Assembly: GCA_017992605.1 (NCBI GenBank) | Contig: JAGOOG010000008.1 | Location: 34,989-98,988, forward strand | Source: Deltaproteobacteria bacterium | GTDB taxonomy: Bacteria > Desulfobacterota > Desulfomonilia > UBA1062 | DNA length: 64,000 nucleotides | Reading direction: 5' to 3' | Part shown: positions 31,118 to 39,246 of the stretch, one piece after another | How positions within the stretch are numbered: the first letter of the stretch is position 1 | Layout: each line of letters begins with the position of its first letter | The notes under the pieces: generated by a model | Seen by the model: only the letters and a program-made list of their open reading frames with translations | The model's database searches: none | What the model was told of the DNA's origin: nothing | Translations under genes and position numbers: made by a program

Positions 31118-31633
31118 CTAGGCCTTGAACTTGCCGAAGTCCTCGGGGCTCATCTTCTCGAGGATCTCCTTGAGCTTCTCCTGGTCCTGTTCGAAGCCGA
31201 CCATGACCTTGCCCGCACTCGTCTTGGCATCCACGCGGATGGCGTCCTTGATCACATGGTCCGCCACGAAGATGGGAGACTTGGTGCGCAGTGCAATGGC
31301 AATGGCGTCCGACGGCCGCGCGTCGATGGTGAGGTGCGTACCGCCGTGGTCAATGGTTATGAGTGCATAGAATACGTTGTCCCTGATGTCCACCACCTCG
31401 ATCTTTTCGATGGCAGCTCCGATGGTTTCGACAAAGGACCTGAAGAGGTCGTGGGTCATGGGCCTCGAGTACTGGACTCCTTCCAGGGCGGCGGCGATGG
31501 CGCTTGCCTCCATGATGCCGATCCAGATAGGGAGGATGAACTTGCCGTCGAGATCACGCAATACGACGATGGGGGCATTGTTGGTGGGATCCAGGGCGAT
31601 GCCGGCCACCTTCATTTCTGAAAAGCCTGGCAT
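31118..31633 (-). CDS. Bifunctional nuclease (BFN/DUF151) family protein
   Basis: 171 residues. The family core is clear: a strand-rich start with NAPIVVLRDLDGKFILPIWI and EASAIAAALEGV, then the conserved RPSDAIAIALR and SPIFV. Plant members have DNase and RNase activity and DUF151 proteins are widespread in bacteria, where function is mostly unknown. A charged helical tail ends the chain. It follows the ECF-type ATPase gene by 83 bases on the same strand. Confidence 0.85.
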   Translation of the reverse strand: MPGFSEMKVAGIALDPTNNAPIVVLRDLDGKFILPIWIGIMEASAIAAALEGVQYSRPMTHDLFRSFVETIGAAIEKIEVVDIRDNVFYALITIDHGGTHLTIDARPSDAIAIALRTKSPIFVADHVIKDAIRVDAKTSAGKVMVGFEQDQEKLKEILEKMSPEDFGKFKA

Positions 31634-31716: not shown

Positions 31717-32574
31717 TCAATCAGGATCACGATGTTTCAGGGTTCTGTCCAGCATGGAGACGAGGTCCTCCATCTCCCAGGATATTCGATCCAGCTCGAT
31801 CCCGTCTGACCTGAGCCATCTCTGCACCTGGATGACGAGCGGTGCCTTGATGTGGAAACGCTCCATGAGATCGATGCCCTCGATGAGATCCGCCCGTGTG
31901 CCCTCAAAGACCTTCCTTCCCTTGGCCATGGCGACGATGCGGTCGGTGATCCCGATGAAATCCTCCTGGTTGTGGGTCACGATGACCACGGTGGTGTCCT
32001 TCAGCTCCGAGATGATCCGGATGAGTTCGCGCCTGCCCGAGGCATCGAGGCCGGCGGTGGGCTCATCGAGCATGAGGATTTCCGGATCCATCATGAGGGC
32101 CGAGGCTAGGGCGAGTTTTCTCTTCTCGCCGGAACTCAGCGAGAACGGCGAAGAGGTTCTGAGCCTGTCCAGATCCAGGTTGAACCCCCGGGTGATGGCG
32201 GAGGCCTTCTGCTCGATGATGTCCTCCTCCGGCCCGAAGAAGTTCCGCAGGGAGAAGACGAGTTCGTCATAGGCGGTCTCCTGGAAGAACTGCTCCTCGG
32301 GAAACTGGAAGAGCACGCCTATGCGCCTGCGCACCGAGGGGAGCTGTTTCCGGCGGGCCAGTTCGTGGATACTGACCCCGTCATAGAGGATATCTCCCCC
32401 GGAAGGCGGCATGAGGGCGTCGATCAGCTGCAGCAGCGTGGTCTTGCCTGAGCCGGCAGGGCCGGCAATGGTCATCTTCTCGCCCTGGTCGATTCTCAGG
32501 TCGAGGCCCATCAGGGCCCACTCGTCACCGGGAACCTCATACCGGTAGGACACATCGATGCATTCTATGACCAC
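31717..32574 (-). CDS. Energy-coupling-factor-type ABC transporter ATPase
   Basis: 285 residues from GTG 32574, chosen because the protein then begins directly with the conserved VIECIDVSYRYEVPG. Walker A is GPAGSGKTT, the Q loop is LFQFPEEQFF (typical of EcfA/CbiO), the signature is LSSGEKRKLALA and Walker B is ILMLDEPTAGLD. EcfA proteins power uptake of vitamins or Ni/Co through an EcfT partner and a substrate-binding S component. Neither is in the window. The start overlaps the PolX-like stop by ten bases, so translation is coupled. Substrate unknown. Confidence 0.83.
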   Translation of the reverse strand: MVIECIDVSYRYEVPGDEWALMGLDLRIDQGEKMTIAGPAGSGKTTLLQLIDALMPPSGGDILYDGVSIHELARRKQLPSVRRRIGVLFQFPEEQFFQETAYDELVFSLRNFFGPEEDIIEQKASAITRGFNLDLDRLRTSSPFSLSSGEKRKLALASALMMDPEILMLDEPTAGLDASGRRELIRIISELKDTTVVIVTHNQEDFIGITDRIVAMAKGRKVFEGTRADLIEGIDLMERFHIKAPLVIQVQRWLRSDGIELDRISWEMEDLVSMLDRTLKHRDPD

Positions 32575-34280
32575 CTGGCAGCCAGTGCCTCCTTCGCGGT
32601 CCGCGCGTCCAGGCAGTTGATGCATGCCCGGGATGTCAGGAATCCCTTTCTGGCTATGACGATCCCGTAGCGCACGTCATCGAGGCCATCAGGGGTGTGG
32701 GCATCGGGGTTTATGGCAAGGCGCCCGCCCCTGGATACGAAGCTCGGTATCAGGCGCCAGTCGAGGTCGAGCCTCATGGGGTGGGCGTTCAGTTCGAGGG
32801 AGACGCCCTGCCTGGCCGCCTCCTCCATGACCGCATCCATGTCCACCTCATAGGGTCTCCGGGAGAGGAGCAGCCTGCCTGTGGGGTGACCGATCATGGA
32901 GGTGAAGGGATTCCGTATGGCCCTGACGATACGCTCGGTCATGGCGTCCCTGTCCATGTCCATGTGGGAGTGGACGCTCGCAACGACGAAATCCAGCTGC
33001 TTCAGGATGTTGTCCGGATAGTCCAGGGAGCCGTCCGGCAGGATGTCCGACTCGATTCCCTTGAGGATGGTGAACCCCGGGTCCTCCCGGTTCAGGGCAT
33101 CGATCTCCTCCCCCTGTCTCTTCAGATCCTTTACGCTCAGGCCGCCTGCATAATAGGCGTTCCTGCTGTGGTCCGAGATCCCGATCCAGCAATAACCGCG
33201 GTCTTTCGCCGCCCGGACCATGTCTTTCAGGGGTGCGTGACCGTCGCTCATGGAGGTGTGGACGTGGAGAATCCCCCTGAGATCCCCCCGGGTGACGAGG
33301 CCCCCGAGCATGCCGTCCACACCGGGCTTCCATTCCATATCACGGCCCTCGCGGACCTCGGGGGGGAGGTACGGCATGCCGAGCAGGGCATAGATGTCCG
33401 CCTCGTCCTTCACGGGTATTACCGTGCCCGAGTGCGAGACTCCCTGCCGCGATACACGGACACCGCGACGCTCCCCGAGCATCAGGGCCTGCTCCAGATG
33501 GGATGGGGATCCCGTGGTGACAAAGAGTGCCGGGACGAGACTCTCCTCGGCCTCCATCCAGACTTTCACCGGGGTCTTTTCAGGGTGGTGCAGGCTGTAC
33601 GATGATCCGTCCCGGGAGAACCGCCCGCCAGGGACGTCTCCCAGGCAGGATTGCACGGCGTCATGGGCACCGTCCCTGTCCAGACACAGGAGTTCGATGC
33701 CTTCGATGACCTCCATGCCCCTGCGGCAGACGCCGGTGGGCAGGACGGAAAGACCAGCGTCGCTCAGCGACTCGATCATCGTCTCCATCCATGACCAGGC
33801 CGCATCGAGCAAGTACCATCCCCGATAGCCGATCACGTCGAGGACTGACCGCCTCATCCTGGCGATCCCCTTGTCGGAAAAGCCCTTCAACCCCGCAAGC
33901 CGTCCGTCGTCGATGGCTGCCAGGAGATCGTCGACGCTCGAGAGACCCAGTTCCCGGTGGAGGGTTCGGAGCTTCTTCATACCGAGGCCAGGCACCTTGA
34001 TCATCTCGAAATACCCGTGGGGGAGCCGTGCCTTGAGGTCCGTCAGCAGGGAGAAATCACGGTCCACGACCCAGGTTTTCAGCACCGAGCCGATGGACGA
34101 CCCTATCCCCGCGACGGTTGTGATGTCCCCGTGTTCGATGATATCACGGGCAGGAGCGCCCATCTCCATGATGGAACGCGCCGCCTTCTGATAGGCCTTT
34201 GCCTTGAAGGGATTCTCCTCGAGGAAATCCAGCGCCTCAGCCACCGTGAGCAGGGCTTCCGCCAGGGCCGCGTTATCCAC
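32565..34280 (-). CDS. PolX-like protein: degenerate DNA polymerase X domain with PHP phosphoesterase domain
   Basis: 571 residues from GTG 34280 (GGGGAG seven bases upstream). Residues about 1-320 have the polymerase X layout: helix-hairpin-helix motifs (TVAGIGSSIG, MIKVPGLGMKKL), the palm region (GVCRRGMEVIEGIELLCL) and TTGSPSHLEQAL. The catalytic GDID pair reads EGIE and the third Asp site (usually DLR) reads KVW, so nucleotide transfer is unlikely. The C-terminal PHP domain keeps its metal ligands: ILHVHTSMSDGH, ISDHS, GIESDIL, ASVHSH, HPTGR, INPDAHTPD. It is coupled to mtaB (eight-base overlap) and the ECF-type ATPase. Confidence 0.83.
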   Translation of the reverse strand: MDNAALAEALLTVAEALDFLEENPFKAKAYQKAARSIMEMGAPARDIIEHGDITTVAGIGSSIGSVLKTWVVDRDFSLLTDLKARLPHGYFEMIKVPGLGMKKLRTLHRELGLSSVDDLLAAIDDGRLAGLKGFSDKGIARMRRSVLDVIGYRGWYLLDAAWSWMETMIESLSDAGLSVLPTGVCRRGMEVIEGIELLCLDRDGAHDAVQSCLGDVPGGRFSRDGSSYSLHHPEKTPVKVWMEAEESLVPALFVTTGSPSHLEQALMLGERRGVRVSRQGVSHSGTVIPVKDEADIYALLGMPYLPPEVREGRDMEWKPGVDGMLGGLVTRGDLRGILHVHTSMSDGHAPLKDMVRAAKDRGYCWIGISDHSRNAYYAGGLSVKDLKRQGEEIDALNREDPGFTILKGIESDILPDGSLDYPDNILKQLDFVVASVHSHMDMDRDAMTERIVRAIRNPFTSMIGHPTGRLLLSRRPYEVDMDAVMEEAARQGVSLELNAHPMRLDLDWRLIPSFVSRGGRLAINPDAHTPDGLDDVRYGIVIARKGFLTSRACINCLDARTAKEALAARWS

Positions 34281-35478
34281 TGAACTCCCCCTGAAGAGTC
34301 TGCCCCTCAAGGTCTATCATCCTGACGCGCACGATATCGCCCTGAACAGCTCGGCCGGGGGCGTCCACGACGATATAGCTGGAGGAAAGGCCACGGACCC
34401 GGCCGTCACAGGATTGCGTTATCAGGACCTCCTCCTCGGCTCCTATGCGGGATGCGGCGAAGGCCTCCCTGCTCTTTCGCGAAAGTGCCCGCAATGCGGC
34501 GGCCCTCCGGGATATCACCTCATCATCCGGGCGTCCGGGCAGGTTCGCCGCCGCAGTCCCCGGCCTCGTGGAAAAAGGAAAGACATGCAGGTAGGTGAAT
34601 CCGAGATCCTCAATGATGGCATGTGACTCCGCAAAGGCCTGATCGTCCTCTCCGGGAAAACCCACGATCACATCTGCACCAACGGCCGTTCCGGGTGACA
34701 CCTCTCGAATTCGCCTCATGAGAGACCTTACATGCCCGGCAGAGTACGGCCTGCCCATGGCCCGAAGCACCCCGTCGCTGCCGTGTTGCAGGGGCAGGTG
34801 GAGGTGTCTGCAGATTCTCGGTTCGTTGGCGACCAAGTCGATGAGGCCGTCCTCCACGGTCCATGGCTCGATGGAGCTGATACGGATCCTCGGCATATCG
34901 GTGTGGGACAGCACCTTCTGCACGAGCCTCGAGAACCCGCCTTCATAGAGGCCGATGTTGATGCCGGTGAGTACCACCTCCCGGAAGCCCTTTCCATGGA
35001 GGATCCTCGCCTCGGTGACCACATCCTGCCACGGTCTGCTCACCGGCCCGCCGCGGGCCAAGGGCACGATGCAGTACGTGCAGTACCTGTCGCAGCCCTG
35101 CTGGACCATGATATAGGCCCTGCTCTGGGATCCGAAACCCGATATGAACCTGGGGAGCTCCACCCCGAGCACTTCGGTAAGGTGGTCGGGCCTGACGACC
35201 TCGACGTCAGGGGATATGGCTCGGATGGATTCGGGATATACCGTCACCAGGCAGCCGGTCACGACCACCCTGCCGCCCAGGCGCAGTGCGCGTCGAACGA
35301 GCCTCCTCCCCTCGGCATCGGCCCGGTGGGTAACGGTGCAGGTATTGATGATGTACCGGTCGGCGCCGGGCTCGGTAAAGGACTGCTCGGTGTGACCGGC
35401 CGCGAGGAGCCCCTCGCGGATCCGCTGGCTGTCATAATGGTTGACCTTGCAGCCCAGCGTGTAGATGGCGAACCTCAT
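34273..35478 (-). CDS. mtaB: tRNA (N6-threonylcarbamoyladenosine37) methylthiotransferase MtaB-like
   Basis: 401 residues of the radical SAM methylthiotransferase group. The N-terminal UPF0004 domain carries three cluster Cys (TLGCKVNHYDS, NTCTVTHRAD, VTGC). The radical SAM motif is GCDRYCTYCIVP. A C-terminal region of about 60 residues fits a TRAM domain. TLGCKVN and the spacing suit MtaB, which adds a methylthio group to t6A37, better than MiaB or RimO. It heads a coupled run with the PolX-like and ECF-type genes. Interestingly tsaE, needed for t6A itself, is also in the window (50969). Confidence 0.85.
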   Translation of the reverse strand: MRFAIYTLGCKVNHYDSQRIREGLLAAGHTEQSFTEPGADRYIINTCTVTHRADAEGRRLVRRALRLGGRVVVTGCLVTVYPESIRAISPDVEVVRPDHLTEVLGVELPRFISGFGSQSRAYIMVQQGCDRYCTYCIVPLARGGPVSRPWQDVVTEARILHGKGFREVVLTGINIGLYEGGFSRLVQKVLSHTDMPRIRISSIEPWTVEDGLIDLVANEPRICRHLHLPLQHGSDGVLRAMGRPYSAGHVRSLMRRIREVSPGTAVGADVIVGFPGEDDQAFAESHAIIEDLGFTYLHVFPFSTRPGTAAANLPGRPDDEVISRRAAALRALSRKSREAFAASRIGAEEEVLITQSCDGRVRGLSSSYIVVDAPGRAVQGDIVRVRMIDLEGQTLQGEFSG

Positions 35479-35513
35479 ACCATGGGTGAAATACTATGGG
35501 CCCTTCGCAGGTG

Positions 35514-36110
35514 TCAATCGCGAGGATTTCCACTCTTCTTTGCAGACCCCTTGATGGCCTTCCTGACCTCGTCGAGAAAGTCCTCGGACGGGTCGAGAAG
35601 CTTCACGCCCGTCTCCACCCGGCCCGTCTCGTCGGGAATCGACCACATCGCCTTGCCGCGCGCCTTCTTTCCGTCGAGGCTGATCCTCACCTCATGGTCC
35701 ACGGAAACCTTTTCGGTGGTCTCCAGGAGCACACCGGCATCGTCGGCATTGAGGAGCTCGCCTTCTTCAGGACCGGCCCCAAGGTCGTACACCACCGGTG
35801 CATGGACCCGGCGGCGCCTGAGGTTCATCTGGGCCTTGAACGCGTCCCGGTTGTCCATGCTCCTGAGCTGGGAATCCATATTGTAGACGACATTGAAGTA
35901 CCTGGTCTTCTGCTCCAGCTTCGCCACCTTGGAGAGGTCCTTGAGAAGCATCTTCCGATGCTTGTGCAGCATCTCCACGAGATGGGTGAAGGCCCCCTCG
36001 AACTCCCTGTTTCCCCTGTTGGCCAGGTAGCTGTTGATCATGGAGGGAAGCTTTTTCTTGACCTGCGATTCGAACTCCCGCAAGGAGTGTTCGAATTCTT
36101 CTCTGTCCAT
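35514..36110 (-). CDS. PilZ-like domain protein with helical N-terminus
   Basis: 198 residues from ATG 36110. The first about 95 are helical and charged (DREEFEHSLREFESQVKKKL). Residues about 100-190 look like PilZ: the Arg cluster NLRRRRVHAPV stands for the RxxxR c-di-GMP loop and NADDAGVLLE for the D/N-x-S-x-x-G motif, but with Asp in place of Ser. c-di-GMP binding is therefore uncertain. It lies between mtaB and glgA and is divergent from glgA. With an HD-GYP protein (55351) and type IV pilus genes in the window, a c-di-GMP link is reasonable but inferred. Confidence 0.6.
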   Translation of the reverse strand: MDREEFEHSLREFESQVKKKLPSMINSYLANRGNREFEGAFTHLVEMLHKHRKMLLKDLSKVAKLEQKTRYFNVVYNMDSQLRSMDNRDAFKAQMNLRRRRVHAPVVYDLGAGPEEGELLNADDAGVLLETTEKVSVDHEVRISLDGKKARGKAMWSIPDETGRVETGVKLLDPSEDFLDEVRKAIKGSAKKSGNPRD

Positions 36111-36209
36111 GGAACCGAGAATACCCAAGATGCGTCTCAAAAGCAAATGCATCATGCGCCGGGAGGGTCCGTCTTTACGGGTAGTCCCCGGATCGTGTAT
36201 GATACGGGC

Positions 36210-37643
36210 ATGGATGCAGTGAAGGTCTTGTTGTGCTCCTCGGAGGTGACGCCTTACGCCAAGACAGGCGGGCTGGCTGATGTCAGCGCCGCGCTGCCCG
36301 CCGAGCTCAACCGCCAGGGCATACGCTGCTCCGTGGTCATGCCCCTGTACCGGGAGATCAGGAATCTCGACCTTCCCCTGAAATTCCGGGGAGATCTCGC
36401 CGTCCTCACAGGCACCGGGATAGCCGAAGCCAGGGTGTTTTCCCACGATACGACCTTCTTCATCGCCCACCCGCTCTTTTCTGACCGGACAGGCCTGTAC
36501 TCCTATGCAGGCTACGATTATCCCGACAACCTCGAACGGTTCTCCTTCTTCTCGAGGGCCTGCGTCGAGCTGGTCCGCCTCATCGGCGATGTCGACATCG
36601 TCCACTGCAACGACTGGCAGACAGCCCTGGTCCTCGCGTACCTCAAGGACGCAGGGATCGAGAACGTGGGCAGCCTTTTCACCATCCACAATCTCGCCTA
36701 CCAGGGCCTCTTTGATGCGATCCTGTGGTCCATGCTCTTTCTGCCCCACGAATACTTCAACCCTGAATGCATGGAGTTCTTCGGCAGGATCAACGTCATG
36801 AAGGCAGGCATCGTGTTCGCGGATGCCGTCAATACCGTGAGTCCCACCTACGCCCGTGAGATACAGACCCCCGAGTTCGGGAGCGGCCTCGAGGGCCTCC
36901 TCAAGGCTGTCTCGCACAAACTCACAGGCATCGCGAACGGCATCGATACCGAGGTCTGGAATCCCGCCACCGACCCCCTGACCGCACGGAGCTACGGGCC
37001 CGGGGACCTCGAGGGCAAGCGTGAATGCAAACGCGCCCTGCTCGACATGTTCTCGCTCCCTGCCGACGACGCCCCGGTATTCGGCATCATCGGCCGCCTG
37101 GTGGAACAGAAGGGCATCGACTGCGTACTGGATGCCGTCCCGTCCCTGGTCGAGATGGATGCAAAGCTGGTGGTCCTCGGCAATGGGCACCCTGCATTCG
37201 AGAAGAGACTCCGGGATCTCCGGGAGGCATTCCCGGCCCACGTGGGCATCCATATCGGGTTCGATGAGGCGAGGGCCCATGCCATTGAAGCAGGCTCGGA
37301 CTTCTTCCTCATGCCTTCCCGTTTCGAGCCCTGCGGACTGAACCAGATGATCAGCATGCGGTACGGGACCATCCCCATTGTCACCGGCGTGGGAGGACTG
37401 AGGGACACAGTCGTGGCACTGGGTGAGGCTGACAGGCCCTTCGGTATCAGGGTGGCCTTCCCCGGCCCGCAGGATCTCGTCGAGGCCATAGCCCAAGCAT
37501 GCACGATCTTCCGCCATGATCCCGGCCTGCTCAACACTATGATATGTACCGCCATGGACCAGGATGTCGGCTGGACAAACCCTGCCCGTGAGTATTCTCT
37601 CATCTACAGCAATCTTAAAAATTTGAAAGAAAGAACAAGATAA
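36210..37643 (+). CDS. glgA: Glycogen (starch) synthase
   Basis: 477 residues, the normal GlgA (GT5) length. It extends alpha-1,4-glucan from ADP-glucose. The ADP-glucose site KTGGLAD is present near residue 18. Other GT5 marks are HCNDWQTAL, FTIHNLAYQG, GIANGIDTEVWNP, and the C-terminal GT-B catalytic region MPSRFEPCGLNQMISMRYGT. ATG 36210 was chosen because the longer frame has no domain content and covers the divergent PilZ-like gene. No glgC or glgB is nearby. The gene is followed by an AT-rich region and dnaA. Confidence 0.93.
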   Translation: MDAVKVLLCSSEVTPYAKTGGLADVSAALPAELNRQGIRCSVVMPLYREIRNLDLPLKFRGDLAVLTGTGIAEARVFSHDTTFFIAHPLFSDRTGLYSYAGYDYPDNLERFSFFSRACVELVRLIGDVDIVHCNDWQTALVLAYLKDAGIENVGSLFTIHNLAYQGLFDAILWSMLFLPHEYFNPECMEFFGRINVMKAGIVFADAVNTVSPTYAREIQTPEFGSGLEGLLKAVSHKLTGIANGIDTEVWNPATDPLTARSYGPGDLEGKRECKRALLDMFSLPADDAPVFGIIGRLVEQKGIDCVLDAVPSLVEMDAKLVVLGNGHPAFEKRLRDLREAFPAHVGIHIGFDEARAHAIEAGSDFFLMPSRFEPCGLNQMISMRYGTIPIVTGVGGLRDTVVALGEADRPFGIRVAFPGPQDLVEAIAQACTIFRHDPGLLNTMICTAMDQDVGWTNPAREYSLIYSNLKNLKERTR

Positions 37644-37857
37644 ACACAGCTCCCGAGTTTTCGACAATTTGTCGATAACTCGAATGGAACCTGTACTGAC
37701 CATACTCCTGAACGCACCCCGACGAATGCCCTCAAGGTCATACTTTCTTTCATAACATATCAATTAATCTGTTTTATTTTCCCCTCGCAGAAAATGAACA
37801 CAGCCCGACCATAACCGGGGTGTTTCACCTTTGACCTTTTGCGGCACAGGAATCATT
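37644..37857. other. AT-rich intergenic region upstream of dnaA, possible replication origin or dnaA control region
   Basis: 214 bases. A near-perfect 14-bp inverted repeat (37654-37667 with 37669-37682, one mismatch) carries TGTCGATAA at 37670-37678, one base off the DnaA box. A stretch at 37741-37780 is very AT-rich (TTTATTTT and CAATTAAT runs) and could be an unwinding element. One more near-box, TGTGGATCA, lies just inside dnaA at 37899-37907. No perfect TTATCCACA is seen, so origin function is open. Confidence 0.4.
37654..37682. repeat. Inverted repeat upstream of dnaA
   Basis: CGAGTTTTCGACAA and TTGTCGATAACTCG flank a single T; 13 of 14 positions pair. It lacks a T-run, so it is more likely a protein site than a glgA terminator. 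Confidence 0.6.
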
Positions 37858-39246
37858 ATGGCGCACGTTATCGCTGAAGTCTTTCTCTCTGGGGGGGTTG
37901 TGGATCATCTTGCAATTATGAAAGAATCTATTCTCTCGAAATCACATGCAGCTTCAGACAGGGCGCTGCTCGATCAGCTGGAAATATCCGAGGAAGACGG
38001 TACGGTCTTTGTACTCTGCCCCAACGTGTTCGCCCAGAAGTATCTGACCCGCGTGTACAAGGACATCATTATCTCAGCAGTGAGGACCTACCTTGACAGG
38101 CCCGTGAATGTGGAGTTCTGCGTGAGCCGGCCCGGAGAGAACCGGGAACGTCCCCCGGCCCCCGCCGCCGCGAAGCCCATCCAGATGAGCCTGCCTGCCT
38201 TTGCACAGACGCAGCCGTGTTCAGGGCTCAACACCCATTTCACCTTCGACGAGTTCGTGGTGGGGCGGTGCAACGCCTTTGCCTACGAAGCGGCACAGGC
38301 CGTGTCCCAGGGAGACATCAACAGGTACAACCCGCTGTACTTCCATTCCGATGTGGGCCTCGGCAAGAGCCACATATCCCATGCCATCGGCAACCGGGTC
38401 CTCTCCGTGCGGCCAGGGACATCAGTGCGCTACATTACGGCACGGGACTTCACCCAGGATTATGTCCATTCGGTGAGGAACAACTGCCTGAGCTCTTTCA
38501 AGAGTTCCTATCGCAGCAGCACCATGGATGTCTTCTTCATCGACGACGTCCATCTCTTCAAGAACAAGGAAAAGACCCAGGTCGAACTGTGCCACGTGCT
38601 CGACGACCTCATCAGCGCCGGCAAGCAGGTCATCCTCTCGGGGTTCCGTGCCCCCACCTCCATACCGCAGATCGATAAGGGCCTGCGCTCCAGGCTTTCC
38701 TCGGGGCTCGTCATTGACATCAAACGGCCGGACAAGGCCACCAGGTCAAAGATCGTACGCCACAAGGCACGCAAGAACGGCATCACCATGCCCGACGACG
38801 TGGTCGAGTTCATCAGCGAGACCATTCATACGAGTGTGCGTGACCTGGAGAGTGCCGTCATGACCATTGCCGCCATGAGTTCCCTCATGAAGCGCAGCGT
38901 CACCATCGATCTGGCCCGCGAACTGCTGGAAGGCACACTGGAAAAGCAGCAGATGATCACCATTCCCTTCATCCTCGATTTCGTTTCCAGGAGCTTCTCC
39001 ATACCAAAGGACAAGCTGGTCTCGCCGTCCCGTAAGAAGGAGATCGTGTACCCCCGGCAGGTGGCCATCTTCCTGTGCAGGCGCTACACCGACGCGCCCC
39101 TGCAGGTCATCGGGGAGGCATTCTCCCGGAAGCACTCCTCCATCATTCACTCCCTGGAGACCATCGAGGCGCAGTACACCCAGAACCTCAAAGTCAAGCG
39201 GGACATCGACTTCCTCATCGACAAGATCGACGGCGAGGCGTCCTAG
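37858..39246 (+). CDS. dnaA: DnaA-family replication initiator, divergent
   Basis: 462 residues from ATG 37858 (AGGA seven bases upstream; ATG 37918 is also possible). Residues about 20-80 are a weak DnaA domain I, followed by a Pro-rich linker. The AAA+ domain opens with FTFDEFVVGRCNAFAYEAA; Walker A is VGLGKSHISHA, Walker B VFFIDDVHLF and the Arg finger region GLRSRLSSG. Domain IV holds IGEAFSRKHSSIIHSLETI where most DnaA proteins have a GGRDHTTVLHA-like signature. ATP-bound DnaA opens the origin. It could be the main DnaA or a paralogue. dnaN, recF and gyrB do not follow. Confidence 0.85.
   Translation: MAHVIAEVFLSGGVVDHLAIMKESILSKSHAASDRALLDQLEISEEDGTVFVLCPNVFAQKYLTRVYKDIIISAVRTYLDRPVNVEFCVSRPGENRERPPAPAAAKPIQMSLPAFAQTQPCSGLNTHFTFDEFVVGRCNAFAYEAAQAVSQGDINRYNPLYFHSDVGLGKSHISHAIGNRVLSVRPGTSVRYITARDFTQDYVHSVRNNCLSSFKSSYRSSTMDVFFIDDVHLFKNKEKTQVELCHVLDDLISAGKQVILSGFRAPTSIPQIDKGLRSRLSSGLVIDIKRPDKATRSKIVRHKARKNGITMPDDVVEFISETIHTSVRDLESAVMTIAAMSSLMKRSVTIDLARELLEGTLEKQQMITIPFILDFVSRSFSIPKDKLVSPSRKKEIVYPRQVAIFLCRRYTDAPLQVIGEAFSRKHSSIIHSLETIEAQYTQNLKVKRDIDFLIDKIDGEAS

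Follow-up and report, generated by a model that had tools for sequence, protein, structure and literature searches.

A PolX with an altered polymerase triad and an intact PHP metal site at a fixed gene position in a bacterial family

The polX gene, its domains and its neighbors

The window, a stretch of 64,000 nucleotides, carries an altered (noncanonical) polX gene on the minus strand (32565..34280). Reading of the DNA, the ORF and its translation gave an open and intact frame of 571 amino acids, which starts with GTG at 34280, preceded just 5' by a GGGGAG run, and ends with a TAG stop at 32565-32567. The NCBIfam PolX equivalog NF006375 matched the protein over nearly its whole length with 381.8 bits, below the cut-off of 426. 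The HHH_8, Pol-beta thumb and PHP domains all scored above their Pfam cut-offs. The N-terminal 8-kDa domain (HHH_8, PF14716, 37.3 bits, cut-off 30) covers residues 2-70 (34071..34277, minus strand) and is followed by a second helix-hairpin-helix (HHH_5, PF14520) at residues 92-142 (33855..34007, minus strand), whose 25.2 bits lie just below the cut-off of 27; an earlier note on this DNA had described the helix-hairpin-helix as retained. The palm domain (residues 151-247; 33540..33830, minus strand), the boundaries of which we set from the alignment and the structural model, shows no large deletion relative to Thermus thermophilus PolX in the alignment. It is followed by the DNA_pol_B_thumb domain (PF14791, 43.4 bits) at residues 251-311 (33348..33530, minus strand), which aligns with its motif VTTGSPSHL and is named "fingers" in the paper on bacterial PolX (PMC9226535), and by the PHP nuclease domain (PF02811) at residues 335-571 (32568..33278, minus strand). 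A second, canonical PolX was not found in the window's own genome.

Upstream of polX, a gene for an MtaB-like tRNA methylthiotransferase (34273..35478, minus strand) overlaps the polX start by 8 bases; its product scored 355.2 bits with NCBIfam TIGR01579, just under the cut-off of 357.05, and exceeded the cut-off of TIGR00089. Downstream, the gene for an ECF-type ABC transporter ATPase (31717..32574, minus strand) likely starts with GTG and overlaps the polX stop by 10 bases; the product matched Pfam ABC_tran, and the best NCBIfam model, ECF_ATPase_2, scored under its cut-off. A gene for a bifunctional nuclease (BFN/DUF151) domain protein (31118..31633, minus strand; PF02577, 136.2 bits) follows. 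From spacing and overlap we infer that the mtaB-polX cluster is probably expressed as an operon. The genes glgA and dnaA (window 35499-39246) adjoin this cluster, in an order that is kept in many genomes of the family.

Active sites and predicted fold

We used T. thermophilus PolX as the reference for active-site positions in an alignment of 65 proteins. D198, D200 and D243 of the reference paired with G194, E196 and K239 of the query, and the same pairing was obtained in phmmer alignments to 3au2 and 2w9m. At the first two triad positions the query has Gly-Ile-Glu (residues 194-196; 33693..33701, minus strand) for Asp198-Leu-Asp200, and at the third it has Lys (residue 239; 33564..33566, minus strand) for Asp243, as the motif readings EGIE and KVW in the earlier note had indicated. 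The accompanying statement that all three aspartates are lost is literally true, but the change at position 2 is only a conservative one from Asp to Glu. An acidic residue is present at just one of the three triad positions, at which canonical PolX has three catalytic acids.

We searched the 21 altered proteins of the family for catalytic aspartates displaced by a few positions, and none fits. Near the two motifs, an acid occurs in at least 8 of the 21 proteins only at columns 190 (21/21), 193 (12/21), 196 (21/21) and 200 (11/21); column 190 is Glu in canonical PolX too, and column 196 corresponds to triad position 2. Because both altered motifs lie in beta strands of the AlphaFold model (195-200 and 238-243) and their flanking residues align in close relatives, neither a frameshift nor a misalignment explains them.

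The TTGS motif, which had been reported to remain, does keep TGS, but the neighboring dNTP residues are altered (YLTGSKAHS in T. thermophilus, VTTGSPSHL in the query). Altered PolX has a hydrophobic residue at the equivalent of Pol-beta N279 (PMC9226535); this position is Leu in the query, hydrophobic in 20 of the 21 family proteins and Thr in one. The two dNTP motifs are separated by 72 residues in the query and in T. thermophilus and by 63 in Deinococcus radiodurans, and the fingers comprise 65 residues as in T. thermophilus, without deletion. Identity between the palms of the query and T. thermophilus PolX is only 14.7%. The PHP domain is intact, as had been proposed: all nine ligands of the HHHEHHEDH set are present (H339, H341, H371, E410, H437, H465, E496, D526 and H528).

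The AlphaFold model of the query, made with 26 aligned sequences, has a mean pLDDT of 92.3. Its superposition on the T. thermophilus PolX structure that contains primer/template DNA (3au6) covers 556 residues with Z 44.4 and rmsd 3.4. With D. radiodurans PolX it covers 531 residues (Z 41.9, rmsd 16.4), and this rmsd suggests a different domain arrangement. Foldseek and VIA-align ranked PolX first and Pol beta/lambda next, with YcdX and histidinol phosphatases as matches of the PHP part, and there was no unexpected fold among the matches listed. The similarity (Z 20 to 28) of the PHP fold to those of histidinol phosphate phosphatase and YcdX might mean that the domain acts on a small phosphoester, like a histidinol phosphatase, and not on DNA. 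This is very improbable given that the match to PolX extends over the full length, that the 8-kDa/HhH region is retained, and that the PHP domain shares 47% identity with its counterpart in D. radiodurans PolX, for which 3'-5' exonuclease activity is published (PMC9226535).

Conservation, gene position and phylogeny

Relatives were searched from genus to phylum (99 genomes), with a match in 45. PolX occurs in 23 of the 24 genomes from the window's family, and none was found in the remaining genome, which is 82% complete (G015). The altered form is present in 21 of the 24 genomes, six of which also have a canonical copy with a DDD triad; two others, G008 and G009, have only a canonical copy. 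The altered family proteins show identities of 42-69%; at a protein identity of 69%, synonymous sites are likely saturated. Counts over 21 rows take in L029 and omit L059, a second fragment from the same genome (G021). These two fragments of altered PolX overlap, lie at the ends of contigs C283 and C57, respectively, both have the triad RDE, and could reflect two copies, a strain mixture or an assembly split. A scan of the whole collection with a single-protein query returned one locus, from Methanomassiliicoccus sp. UBA386, with 36% identity and a canonical DDD triad.

All nine PHP ligands are invariant in the 21 altered family proteins. Domain identities were computed from 18 of the 21 altered rows (without L016, L025 and L029) and 29 of the 36 canonical rows. 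Within the altered clade, conservation is highest in the PHP domain, with a mean pairwise identity of 0.62, and the palm ranks among the least conserved domains (0.33); the corresponding values in canonical PolX are 0.47 and 0.39. A weakly conserved palm, in relatives whose genomes are assemblies of many contigs, could point to a decaying gene or a sequencing artefact. However, none of the 21 family genomes with altered PolX showed an in-frame stop (the gene is cut by contig ends in G005 and G021), and with the sequence identity, the fixed gene order and the invariant PHP site in the family we give this explanation practically no credence.

Conservation within the palm and fingers is uneven. 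Triad position 2 is acidic in all 21 altered proteins (15 Glu, 6 Asp) and R186, R187, G257 and H261 are invariant, while positions 194 and 239 vary freely, with 8 and 10 residue types. This pattern raises the possibility that the palm keeps a reduced role, with a pocket of E196, R186-R187, TG(S) and H261 that could hold a phosphate, a nucleotide or a single metal and place the 3' end for the PHP nuclease or gate it. In line with this, S258 is retained in 17 of the 21 proteins; across all altered PolX, the share for the GS motif is 42% (PMC9226535). A need in folding could also account for the retention of these residues, however, and much of the pattern is general: among the other altered rows, R186 and R187 are present in 7/7 and H261 and G257 in 6/7. 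Position 196 is acidic in 3/7 of these rows. In addition, D. radiodurans PolX is still an exonuclease after replacement of its two active-site glutamates by alanine (PMC9226535). Such a role for the palm is unlikely; the residues that are kept (E196, RR and TG(S)) may nevertheless allow some nucleotide binding.

The altered polX gene has a fixed place in the family, in the order mtaB-polX-ecfA-like-bfn. We surveyed the neighborhood in 16 of the 20 other family genomes with the altered form, leaving out the altered copy of G007, G017, G020 and G021. The mtaB gene is directly upstream in 14 of the 16 loci, and the contig stops at this point in the remaining two. Directly downstream, the ECF-type ATPase gene is found in 15, the exception being G010, in which the BFN gene comes after polX; the BFN gene follows in 13 loci, and in three the contig ends before it would be reached. 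None of the mtaB, ATPase and BFN neighbors was seen at any of the eight loci of canonical copies in the family. In G008 and G009 polX is missing between mtaB and the ATPase gene, which are approximately 90 and 30 bases apart. Because these two genomes group with G006, an altered-polX genome, in a tree of the neighbor genes, polX was more likely lost from them, with the caveats that this tree was rooted at its midpoint and that G006 is filled to only 34% in it.

Trees were calculated from 62 of the 65 proteins, without the near-copy L016 and the fragments L029 and L059; no row is named Bacteroidota. In the full-length tree the family forms a clade of 19 rows with a support of 100, which joins the PolX of D. 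radiodurans and three altered PolX of rhizobia (SH-aLRT 82). A larger starred group around this union also includes four canonical PolX from the family's phylum. With palm and fingers removed from the sequences, the union of the family and the Deinococcus group was neither resolved nor rejected (p-AU 0.61). Given the starred branches, the sampled proteins must have switched between canonical and altered forms at least three times. From its placement in this 62-protein sample, the loss in the family would be either the main loss already published or one close to it. Two altered proteins of the same phylum (L027 and L028) and one from a Legionella plasmid (L068) are placed apart. The last, from Legionella adelaidensis (NZ_LR134417.1, 57729-60126), has the triad SDH, lies inside the canonical clade and looks like a separate loss.

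Relation to published PolX and predicted function

Noncanonical PolX, defined by Prostova et al. (2022; PMC9226535), has a non-acidic residue in place of at least one triad acid, as the query has at G194 and K239, and accounts for 27.5% of prokaryotic PolX. According to the same source, the triad is altered in 302 variants, dNTP sites are altered as well, canonical and altered copies can co-exist, and the PHP ligands HHHEHHEDH are present in 98% of altered PolX. In agreement with this, 25% of the PolX1 group are without a conserved polymerase site in a newer genome set (PMC12926913). These figures do not support the idea that an altered PolX is unusual. Many, although not all, noncanonical members have palm and finger deletions as described in PMC9226535, and the query has none; since that paper classifies by the triad, the missing deletions do not exclude membership.

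The best PDB sequence match of the query is D. radiodurans PolX (2w9m), with 316 bits compared with 265 for the canonical T. thermophilus enzyme. D. radiodurans PolX is itself noncanonical, with the triad AEE (PMC9226535). The query resembles it in the altered triad and dNTP residues, the intact PHP ligands, the 8-kDa region and the domain order, and differs in that its triad is GEK and its palm is not shortened. With T. thermophilus PolX (3au2, 3au6) it has the domain order and fold in common but not the DDD triad and dNTP pocket. PolX-like proteins of Actinobacteria also keep PHP, with the polymerase function dispensable; in contrast to the query, which retains the polymerase domain as a fold, they are described as being without that domain altogether (PMC12926913).

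Two noncanonical Deinococcus PolX enzymes had no polymerase activity and were Mn2+-dependent 3'-5' exonucleases in PMC9226535, in which a polymerase activity once reported for D. radiodurans PolX was not reproduced. From these enzymes we infer that the query, too, would lack polymerase activity and have exonuclease activity. By its sequence and by this analogy, the gene very probably encodes a noncanonical PolX with a dead polymerase and a retained PHP 3'-5' exonuclease. The earlier note had proposed a change from repair polymerase to DNA-bound phosphoesterase. Loss of the polymerase with the PHP nuclease kept is indeed the best reading and matches the published class, but the phosphoesterase would not be a gain, as canonical PolX already has the PHP exonuclease and one of two activities would have been lost.

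A Pol-beta-like palm with Gly-Glu-Lys in place of Asp-Asp-Asp should not bind two catalytic metals, and because this metal site is replaced and the dNTP pocket is altered, no DNA copying is expected. The C-terminal PHP domain with its nine ligands should act as a Mn2+-dependent 3'-5' exonuclease, and perhaps also as an AP-endonuclease or 3'-phosphatase, and would presumably trim 3' ends during repair in the source organism. The 8-kDa/HhH region and what remains of the palm and fingers could serve as a DNA-binding scaffold that presents the 3' end.

A statistical link of altered PolX with Ku and LigD has been published, with NHEJ genes in 46.5% of genomes that have altered PolX (PMC9226535). 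Ku and the LigD Prim-Pol were not found in the window's own genome, which is 98% complete. Ku and the LigD polymerase domain are missing from 23 of the 24 family genomes, own genome included, and are both present in the remaining one (G019). The published link therefore does not explain the family, in which altered PolX must work mostly without NHEJ. This near absence also argues that the exonuclease function of altered PolX need not depend on Ku and LigD. Compared with noncanonical PolX as described in PMC9226535, the query differs in that no Ku or LigD was found and that its neighbors are MtaB, the ECF ATPase and BFN. A bolder scheme, in which the family PolX is a dedicated 3' exonuclease outside NHEJ, the palm pocket of E/D196, RR, TGS and H gates PHP, and the BFN-type nuclease is a partner, is quite doubtful.

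The class itself is already published; new here is the detail at the level of the family, namely the fixed gene position, the rarity of NHEJ genes and the acid retained at position 196. The class of PolX with a dead polymerase and a live nuclease is thereby extended to a family with the altered form as a resident, position-fixed gene. A literature search on PolX with BFN/DUF151, limited and by no means exhaustive, listed no paper that contains the word PolX, and none on the order mtaB-polX-ecfA-bfn was found in it.

PolX matches of approximately 28-42% identity were also seen in seven unannotated phage records (Listeria and Staphylococcus phages), six of which are contigs of approximately 5 kb or less and possibly host DNA in phage preparations. 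On a Bradyrhizobium plasmid (L063; NZ_CP082162.1, 553429-560949), two ligD genes flank an altered PolX whose palm is shortened, which agrees with the link published for Alphaproteobacteria.
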